From Cladochytrium replicatum (lineage: Eukaryota; Chytridiomycota; Chytridiomycetes; Cladochytriales; Cladochytriaceae): a DNA stretch of 64,000 nt. A program made the position numbers and the translations under genes. Shown here piece by piece: positions 20,745 through 23,326 of the stretch. The stretch lies in assembly GCA_025526935.1 (NCBI GenBank), contig JAHLKD010000065.1, forward strand, positions 248,001-312,000. Direction: 5' to 3'. A model generated the notes under the pieces. It was not told the DNA's origin, did not search any database, and saw nothing but the letters and a program-made list of their open reading frames with translations. How positions within the stretch are numbered: position 1 is the stretch's first letter; each line of letters opens with the position of its first letter.

Positions 20745-23326
20745 TCAAGAATCTTCTTCCTCAGCAGTTCGAAGCCAATCCACCAGCGGTTTACACTTCT
20801 TCCGCACTTCCGACTGATCCAGCGGTGCAGCATCAAACCATTCAAATATAACATCCTCCTCAACCAAATCAACATCATAAAGCTGTTTGTAAATTGCGGC
20901 GGTCTTGCCAAGCATCTGCACTGAAGAGCGCTGCAAAAACTTCTCCCACGCACGAAGGAGAAGACCCTGATCAGCGGCACTGCGGACAAACTTCCCACAA
21001 AAGAAAATCATCAACGAAGAACATGCTAAATTTGGTTGAGATCCACACACCTGCTTTAAGAGCTTGATAGCCCCTTCCAAACGGGCCGTCGAATACTCCT
21101 CAAACAGAGCGGGAATGATGATAGCAAAGAGCTGCGACTTGGAGAGGTCATTCCTGAACTCCAATCTCGTAAGTTCCTTGACCTGGTCACTCAATTCCCG
21201 AGTTGTAGTCACTGCACTGTCACTGCTTCCCCCAGTCGGATAGAAGAACGTGCGCAAATCTTTAATTAGTCCTTCCTCCAGCTGAATTTGTTTAGCGGCT
21301 GCCGCTTCGTTCTTCTTGACACTGAAGACGAAGGATTCAACACGGCAATTCGATGGATGCTATTTGATCTTACACGAAGTTTGAAATCTCTTCGTTCGGG
21401 ACCTCGACAACCTTCATCCACTTCTTATCCTGGATCAAAGTTAGCTGCATTCGTACAGCGTGTTCAGGGTTTTACATCATCTTCCAACAAACCCTTGGCT
21501 TTTGCCCCCTTTTTGGTCTTTCCCGTGGTAGAAGAGGCAGGGCTGGGAATAGAGGGGGCCACAGGAAGAGCTTTCTGCTCCTTGCGAGACGGACTTCATA
21601 GTAAATCGTCAGCTAAATAACTGAAGACAGCTAAGAACACATACCTAATTGAACGTGTGTCTTCACGATCTTCACTCTCGTTGCCAGTGGGTGGGCCGGC
21701 TGACGATTCAGAGAGGATAGAAAAGTATCCTGCGACCTGTTTCGGCTTCTCCGGTTGGAGAAGCATGGTCTTTGACGAGAACGACAATGGTGCGGAGGTG
21801 GTTTCGCCAGAATGACGGGAAACGGAAGTCCAGACATCCTTGTCACGTTTGTCATGCTCGCGCGCGTGATCCCAACTGCGGTCCCGCGGAGCAGGTTCCC
21901 CGTCGTTACCAAATGACCCATCGTTCTCTCCGCCGAAGTTTGGTCGCTGACGAAGCTCACTAAAGATTTTCGTTAAATTGAATCATCACAATAGGCGCTC
22001 AAGGGCATTCAGCATACCTGTCGCTGAGGGAAAGTCAAAGTCAATAATGTCTACCAACAACAGTTTCAAATTTCACTTACCAATGCGCGAAGTTGCAACG
22101 AGGACCGTATTGACAAAAGTTCTGAAATGATCCCGTTAGTGAAACCTGAGAATGGCAAATTAAACGATCTTCTACCTCCTTCATGAACCTCTCACACATT
22201 CGTGTTTTGTACAAAGGATTCTCTGGGCCATCACGTTTCTTACTGGTCTCCCCTCCAAATGTAGGCCGATCACGTAATTCAGTCTGTAAGAGCTGGTGAA
22301 ACGAAGAAAAGAATTCTCGAGAAGAAAAGCTTACAGCCCCATGAGCAAAGGTGCAACGATTTCCATAGGGGCAGAAACCCTCCGTTTCAAATCGCTCGCA
22401 AAGTCGGGTTTTGTAAAGAGGGTTGTCCACGTTGCCTTGCGGAGGAGAAATTCCCGCCAATGGGCCGGAAACAGACGGCGCAGATGACGCCTCGTAGCCA
22501 TCACGTCCACGACGGTCAGAATCCCCGCGCCGATCACCATCATCTCCAAGGTCGTCGTCGGTCGCCCGGCGACTCCGAACTTCATCGCTGTTACGAGTGC
22601 GATCAAGAATTCCGCGGCGAGGAGGTGATTGAGAGCCTGCATCTTCTTTTCCGTTCTTTGCGGACTCCCCGCTTCCTCCAGTGCCAATTTTACGAGCATC
22701 CTTTCCCGATTGGTAGTTTTTTTGGAGGTTAAGAGGCAATGAGCTGTTGCTGTTATTGTTCGAAGGGCTCGAAGTAACTGTCTTCGATTTGTGTTCTTCG
22801 ATATACGCTGCAGCCTGCTTCAGAACATCTTGCATGCTCTTATAAATGCATTTCTCTTGAGCCTGCTGGAGGGGAGCCCATGCAAAGTGAAATCCGGATA
22901 CTCCGCCAGGTACGACTCTTCCACTTTGAAGAACTTGAGCCAAGTAGTAAACCACACGCTTTGGGCGACTCCCAGAGAGATACTTTGGACAAGAACAGCA
23001 AAGTAAGCTGATTTGCTTGAGGCAAAGGTTGTAAAAACATACCTTAATCTCGACGCGGAAATTCTCCGAATCGACAATCGAGAGATCTTTGGCGGATAAT
23101 CCGGTAGAATCAATGGTTTCGCGAAGAGCGCATCTGGATGGGGTATTCTTTCAACCACGAAATACTTCAGCTCATATGACTAAACTTACTTCACCTCGTT
23201 CTCCTGTCCAATTACACGACCTTTCGGCGGAGTCCAGTGCCGTTTATTAGAAAACGAGTCGTTTAACAATAGAAATTCTGGTACACGATGGATGCGATAC
23301 AAAACAAGTCCCGCGTAGTGTTCCAT
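20745..23326 (-). CDS. Nudix + tandem CCCH zinc finger + W2 (eIF5C) fusion protein
   Basis: The ATG at 23326 begins MEHYAGLVLYRIHRVPEFLL. Exons 23190-23326, 23043-23133, 22335-22982, 22176-22283, 22081-22121, 21645-21959 and further ones down to 20745 join in frame, giving about 660 residues. Residues 1-125 match the Ap4A hydrolase NUDT2 type of Nudix fold (HWTPPKGRVIGQENEV, then CALRETIDSTGLS, then VVYYLAQV). The Nudix box has lost the EE pair (DS). A Ser/Arg/Asp-rich linker leads to two TTP-like fingers, NPLYKTRLCERF and NPLYKTRMCERF, each C-x8-C-x5-C-x3-H and each followed by ELRxRPxFGGE. The C terminus is a W2 domain (YDVDLVEEDVIFEWFD, CKPLVDWLRTAEEE) like eIF5. CCCH pairs bind AU-rich mRNA; W2 domains bind eIF2-beta or eIF3. 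A regulator of translation or decay is inferred. Confidence 0.85.

Follow-up and report, generated by a model that had tools for sequence, protein, structure and literature searches.

A single gene of the chytrid Cladochytrium replicatum joins an N-terminal Nudix domain of the Ap4A-hydrolase type, two CCCH zinc fingers and a C-terminal W2 domain in one protein, and the same order of domains characterizes an old protein family of early-diverging fungi; both this three-domain architecture and its age can be stated with near certainty. All aligned members have lost the last catalytic glutamate of the Nudix box and all have kept a tyrosine and a lysine of the nucleotide pocket, and among known translation factors the W2 domain scores closest to eIF5. 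We read the protein, with a probability of about 0.5 that rests on sequence comparison, as an mRNA-tethered mimic of eIF5 in which a putatively non-hydrolysing Nudix domain would serve as a ligand-binding or docking module. Each of the three modules is well known. An earlier sequence-only reading of this DNA knew of no described protein with the Nudix-CCCH-CCCH-W2 order, and a search of the open-access literature for this architecture likewise found no description of the chain by title or abstract opening.

The gene lies on the minus strand of the window, by which we mean the whole stretch of 64,000 nucleotides of C. replicatum DNA that was analysed, taken from a genome assembly of 50.5 Mb in 198 contigs. 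The coding region (20745..23326) runs from an ATG at 23326 to a stop codon that ends at 20745. Its eleven exons are separated by ten introns of 46-60 nt, all of the GT-AG type, and the spliced product of 678 aa is letter for letter identical with the database protein P0001 (BJ742DRAFT_825696) of C. replicatum, a member of the Cladochytriales. The single gene and the in-frame exons with normal splice signals that had been proposed from the letters are thereby borne out, the support for the splice model being indirect, namely that of the database gene model P0001. The last intron separates the end of exon 10 at 21051 from the start of exon 11 at 20990. A ten-exon model of 673 aa, in which the region of a microexon was read as a single 121-nt intron, was dropped; P0001 disagrees with it at two junctions, both of which are accounted for by the DNA. 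The features of the gene are as follows.

23326-23190, 23133-23043, 22982-22335, 22283-22176, 22121-22081, 22023-22018, 21959-21645, 21593-21476, 21429-21374, 21321-21051 and 20990-20745, minus strand: the eleven exons, whose splicing reproduces P0001
22018..22023, minus strand: 6-nt microexon CGACAG just past finger 2, with AG before and GT after it, placed by comparison with P0001
22782..23326, minus strand: Nudix domain of the Ap4A-hydrolase type, residues 1-143, exons 1-3 (PF00293, 29.6 bits; PDB matches)
23097..23221, minus strand: degenerate Nudix box G-x5-E-x7-R-E-T-I-D-S-T-G-L, residues 36-58, interrupted by intron 1 (family alignment)
22341..22424, minus strand: CCCH finger 1 with its lead-in, residues 263-290 (PF00642; alignment)
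22083..22220, minus strand: CCCH finger 2 with its lead-in, residues 314-341, interrupted by intron 4 (second stretch of PF00642)
20748..21284, minus strand: eIF5-type W2 HEAT region, residues about 520-678 (PF02020, 61.0 bits; eIF5 matches)

The Pfam matches listed for P0001 comprise 10 families, and the three that were to be expected all score above their cut-offs: zf-CCCH (PF00642) with 60.8 bits over two stretches (cut-off 20.5), W2 (PF02020) with 61.0 bits (cut-off 30), the match proper covering the last 74 residues (20969-20748), and NUDIX (PF00293) with 29.6 bits (cut-off 21.1). A scan of NCBIfam gave a single match of 25 bits, far below the cut-off of 475, and a search of a plasmid collection matched nothing. 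When a profile of 30 family proteins was run against solved structures (PDB), the N-terminus matched Ap4A hydrolases best (2e-27), as the likeness first noticed had suggested, and the fingers matched TTP and Tis11d (about 1e-18); at the C-terminus eIF5 led with 64.0 bits (1.2e-16), eIF2B-epsilon and eIF4G1 reaching 46.7 and 38.4 bits.

Two homologue searches (E <= 1e-5, 8000 candidates scored in each) returned 131 and 153 proteins, of which the best 120 of each were taken; the resulting family sample holds 128 different proteins, and domain HMMs were built from 85 of them. In 112 of the 128 homologues, scanning with these HMMs found the Nudix domain first, then two regular fingers and then W2. 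The departures are eight proteins with Nudix and two fingers and without W2, five without Nudix and three with one regular finger, one of these three also being devoid of W2; several of the incomplete homologues carry the database label 'partial'. The organism names given, which accompany part of the matches listed (the best 120 of 131 and the best 120 of 153), are those of chytrids, the gut fungus Piromyces, Olpidium, Coemansia and its relatives, Basidiobolus, Mortierella and its relatives, Mucor and its relatives, and arbuscular mycorrhizal fungi. All of them are early-diverging fungi, and no name from Dikarya, animals or plants occurs among these matches. The order of domains is thus not special to one genome and belongs to an old family of these fungi.

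From the 128 homologues, 52 rows were picked by hand for a tree, with groups set by the given names (P0028 was put in the Piromyces group by likeness). Each of the seven multi-row groups in the tree falls on one branch, its topology agrees with taxonomy, and the nine groups cost 8 changes, which is the minimum. The conserved order and the taxonomy-following tree therefore fit one old fusion followed by vertical descent. As a separate observation, the post-Nudix linker holds a conserved linear motif around PLDSQRQA (P0004, P0005, P0010, P0012 and others); [DE]SQR is found in 51 of the 128 family proteins and is absent from P0001.

Both fingers have the exact spacing C-x8-C-x5-C-x3-H that had been read from the sequence, with lead-ins of the form NPLYKTR(L/M)CERF; the lead-in first given, (R/N)PLYKTRxCERF, needs amending, as N precedes both fingers and R neither. 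The two fingers and the YKT lead-in are shared with the tandem CCCH proteins TTP, Tis11d and Cth, from which the family differs by a long and variable linker and by Arg or Lys in place of the Glu of KTEL. At that position the alignment has Glu in TTP and Tis11d, whereas among the 253 regular fingers of the 128-protein sample 213 have Arg, 40 have Lys and none has Glu. Between the fingers lie 29-123 residues in the 125 proteins concerned, and the 18-residue linker that is the rule in the TTP family occurs in none of them. Membership of the TTP family, considered as a candidate assignment, is dropped on account of linker length and lead-in residue; two TTP-like genes of the host genome do show KTEL/KTEM and a linker of 18 residues. 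Since two TTP hallmarks are missing, strict AU-rich specificity is not expected, so that of the TTP-like fingers proposed earlier the kinship stands, TTP and Tis11d being nearest, and the strict binding of AU-rich mRNA does not. Pagano et al. (2007) reportedly found that TTP-type specificity is relaxed towards U-rich RNA when Arg or Lys replaces the Glu of KTEL. The nematode protein MEX-5 resembles the family in having a basic residue there (KTKL in 6pmg), but the two have no other domain in common and kinship is not claimed. The site of MEX-5 is 9-13 nt long with six or more uridines (PMC9846511). From the basic residue and the MEX-5 case, we would expect the fingers to bind U-rich rather than strictly AU-rich RNA.

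For the C-terminal domain, the family W2 HMM was applied to proteins of the same genome and ranked two eIF5 proteins first (85.4 and 82.5 bits), followed by 5MP (41.0 bits, for a rough two-frame join) and another W2 protein (22.0 bits); a genome search with P0001 matched the two eIF5 loci and not 5MP. In the 85-row alignment, both aromatic/acidic boxes retain their residues (Glu642 in 83/85, Trp648 in 84/84, Trp669 in 83/83). Together with the ranking of solved structures, these results support an eIF5-type W2 domain with both boxes. Because eIF2B-epsilon and eIF4G have a W2 domain as well, its partners in this protein can be named as candidates only. Like eIF5, the protein ends in a W2 domain carrying both boxes, but the eIF5 GAP domain PF01873 (eIF-5_eIF-2B) is absent from the 10 Pfam families matched on P0001; the host genome has two loci in which PF01873 is followed by W2. 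A W2 domain without the GAP domain is also what characterizes the eIF5-mimic 5MP/BZW. Unlike 5MP, the protein has no 5MP N-terminal HEAT domain (PF25504) among its Pfam matches, its W2 scores nearer to eIF5, and it has predicted RNA-binding fingers of its own; the true 5MP of the host genome matches PF25504 with 163.6 bits. 5MP and eIF5 compete for eIF2, and the W2 domains of both bind the eIF2-beta tail (PMC12224906, PMC5823381). By this analogy, the W2 domain of the family is likely to act in an eIF5-like manner. Elsewhere in the genome, W2-like matches were seen at L006 (G000:C9:423.5k) and L008 (C65:164.7k), in frames unlike eIF5, 5MP and eIF2B-epsilon, the frame at L006 having a very acidic tail at its end.

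Nudix residues were counted after aligning the 120 proteins from the first homologue search, the 8 proteins found only in the second search being left out. Of the 111 rows that have a residue at the third and last Glu position of the REUxEE box, not one has Glu (I in 62, L in 13, T in 12, A in 12, V in 9, S in 2 and N in 1). At the first position Glu is found in 79 of 112 rows and absent in 33; at the second, 81 of 112 rows have Glu and 23 have Asp; and the fourth Glu, which was hand-aligned with the Glu of LS-x-EHQ in standalone enzymes, is kept in 80 of 114. In P0001 the box reads RETIDSTGL, with Asp at the second Glu position, and the fourth Glu is absent. As a control, ten fused Nudix domains were used as query and gave 63 short standalone matches, 44 of which, including Ap4A hydrolases of a weevil, a rotifer and a nematode, carry all three box Glu; the remaining 19 comprise fragments of the fused family from fungi, short pieces, and a partial bird protein that is gapped at the box. 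The two pocket residues, by comparison, persist: Tyr77 is kept in 112/112 and Lys84 in 113/113 family rows, the corresponding counts in the complete standalone proteins being 42/44 and 41/44. Tyr77 aligns to residue 87 of 1XSC, which is described as an adenine contact (PMC5389931). A tree that includes 24 of the 44 standalone proteins unites 20 fused Nudix domains in a single clade; most branches of the clade are short, which makes the domains look constrained.

With a catalytic Glu missing from every aligned member, hydrolysis is unlikely, and the Nudix domain is very probably non-hydrolysing. It had been proposed to read a nucleotide or cap signal, and of this proposal binding, at most, survives. 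Some members may have a weak or altered hydrolysis, which is thinkable because the first, second and fourth Glu are often kept. Many members are named 'bis(5'-nucleosyl)-tetraphosphatase' or 'nudix-type motif 2' in databases, names that are probably wrong as statements of activity. With the NUDT2-type asymmetric Ap4A hydrolases (PF00293), the domain shares a match over residues 15-135, the WTPPKG start of the box, the adenine-contact Tyr and the PK lysine; it differs in the incomplete box Glu of all aligned members and in its fusion to other domains. Of 15 Nudix loci of the genome that were scanned for the box, 6 have it complete, none of these being recognised as NUDT2-like. As such a scan misses intron-split boxes, the genome may still have a separate Ap4A hydrolase gene, although the genome search with P0001 revealed no second intact relative of the Nudix part.

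For the RNA target, the partners and the regulatory effect, we infer the following scheme. The two TTP-class CCCH fingers would tether the protein to U-rich mRNA, where the C-terminal eIF5-type W2 domain, free of a GAP domain, would present its eIF2-beta and eIF3c surfaces. Local competition with eIF5 could then alter the initiation rate or the start-codon stringency of the bound mRNAs, an effect for which the eIF5-mimic 5MP, acting globally, may serve as precedent. The N-terminal domain, as its sequence strongly indicates, would be a former Ap4A hydrolase that has lost cutting and has been retained to bind a partner, the candidates being a dinucleoside polyphosphate, an RNA 5' end and a protein. 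The odds of the alternatives weighed below overlap with this reading and with one another, and do not sum to one.

The Nudix fold might be solely a docking surface for protein or RNA, with no small ligand, a possibility that we take seriously without favouring it. Its catalytic positions have relaxed to hydrophobic residues, and non-catalytic Nudix domains are typically part of multidomain proteins, where their ligands are small molecules or other protein domains (PMC5389931). A plain scaffold, however, has no need of an invariant adenine-contact Tyr. That both the pocket Tyr and Lys are invariant though the last catalytic Glu is lost speaks for a nucleotide sensor, in which the dead Nudix domain would bind Ap4A, a related dinucleotide or a triphosphate or NpnN-capped RNA 5' end and so switch the W2 domain or the fingers. 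The literature is in line with such binding: changes in the Nudix box of sea-anemone TRPM2 hurt catalysis and spare the affinity for ADP-ribose (PMC6461439), and the substrate range of NUDT2 includes RNA 5' triphosphates (PMC8616924). The NUDT9-H domain of vertebrate TRPM2, too, is a non-catalytic Nudix domain within a larger protein, which binds ADP-ribose (PMC6461439), but it belongs to another Nudix subfamily. The invariant residues may, however, be structural, and a coupling of the Nudix domain to the other domains by allostery is hypothetical, so that we regard the sensor as tentative.

Further-reaching, and unlikely, is an alarmone- or cap-gated, mRNA-specific translation switch conserved in early-diverging fungi, in which the dead Nudix domain would bind ApnN or an NpnN-capped or triphosphate RNA 5' end uncut and thereby alter the engagement of eIF2/eIF3 by an eIF5-like tail that the fingers keep on U-rich mRNA. 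Should the Nudix domain bind Ap4A or related RNA ends, dinucleoside-polyphosphate signalling to translation, a long-standing idea, would become directly testable.

Action by way of mRNA decay is possible. A decay factor of the TTP kind, with the W2 domain as a generic HEAT adaptor and not an eIF5 mimic, would agree with TTP and Tis11d as the nearest relatives of the fingers. We nonetheless consider it unlikely: the W2 domain is closest to eIF5 and keeps both boxes, the TTP linker and the KTEL Glu are missing, and the genome already has two TTP-like genes. An active Ap4A hydrolase joined to RNA-binding modules, which is what many database names imply, would account for the NUDIX match above cut-off and for the first and second Glu that are often kept. 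It is improbable in view of the third box Glu, found in no row, and of the first Glu, absent in 33/112 rows, whose position is that of the NUDT2 substitution E58A, which abolishes activity (PMC8616924); NUDT9 with its last two Glu changed to Lys is likewise inactive (PMC6461439). Finally, an artefact of assembly or gene model that fused separate genes is of negligible probability, for although the gene model contains ten short introns and a microexon, the family tree agrees with taxonomy and the identical domain order in 112/128 homologues excludes a misjoin, so the fusion is real as had been thought.

The surroundings of the gene show traces of duplication. An inverted duplicate block of ~29 kb pairs positions 14001-31778 of the window with G000:C1:677734-706667, the longer matching stretches being 73-83% identical. 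At L034 4323-5180 (G000:C1 about 694.8-695.7 kb) the fusion gene has a second, degraded copy, where the Nudix part and some of the linker align with frame-breaking indels and the CCCH and W2 parts were not found. Paired loci elsewhere in the genome comprise two for eIF5, two further ones with PF01873 (probably eIF2-beta), two TTP-like and two decapping-enzyme-like; these pairs hint at large-scale duplication. Directly downstream of the fusion gene lie two tandem MIF genes (20281-20680 and 19477-19885 of the window, minus strand), whose DNA stretches are 74% identical and whose second exons match PF01187 with 51.2 and 50.0 bits. A dispersed repeat of ~170 bp (window 15878-16046) recurs in the genome with over 30 matches, most of which are 84-91% identical, and positions 49789-49945 of the window (plus strand) hold an isolated match to eukaryotic LSU rRNA, at model positions 967-1124 of 3401.
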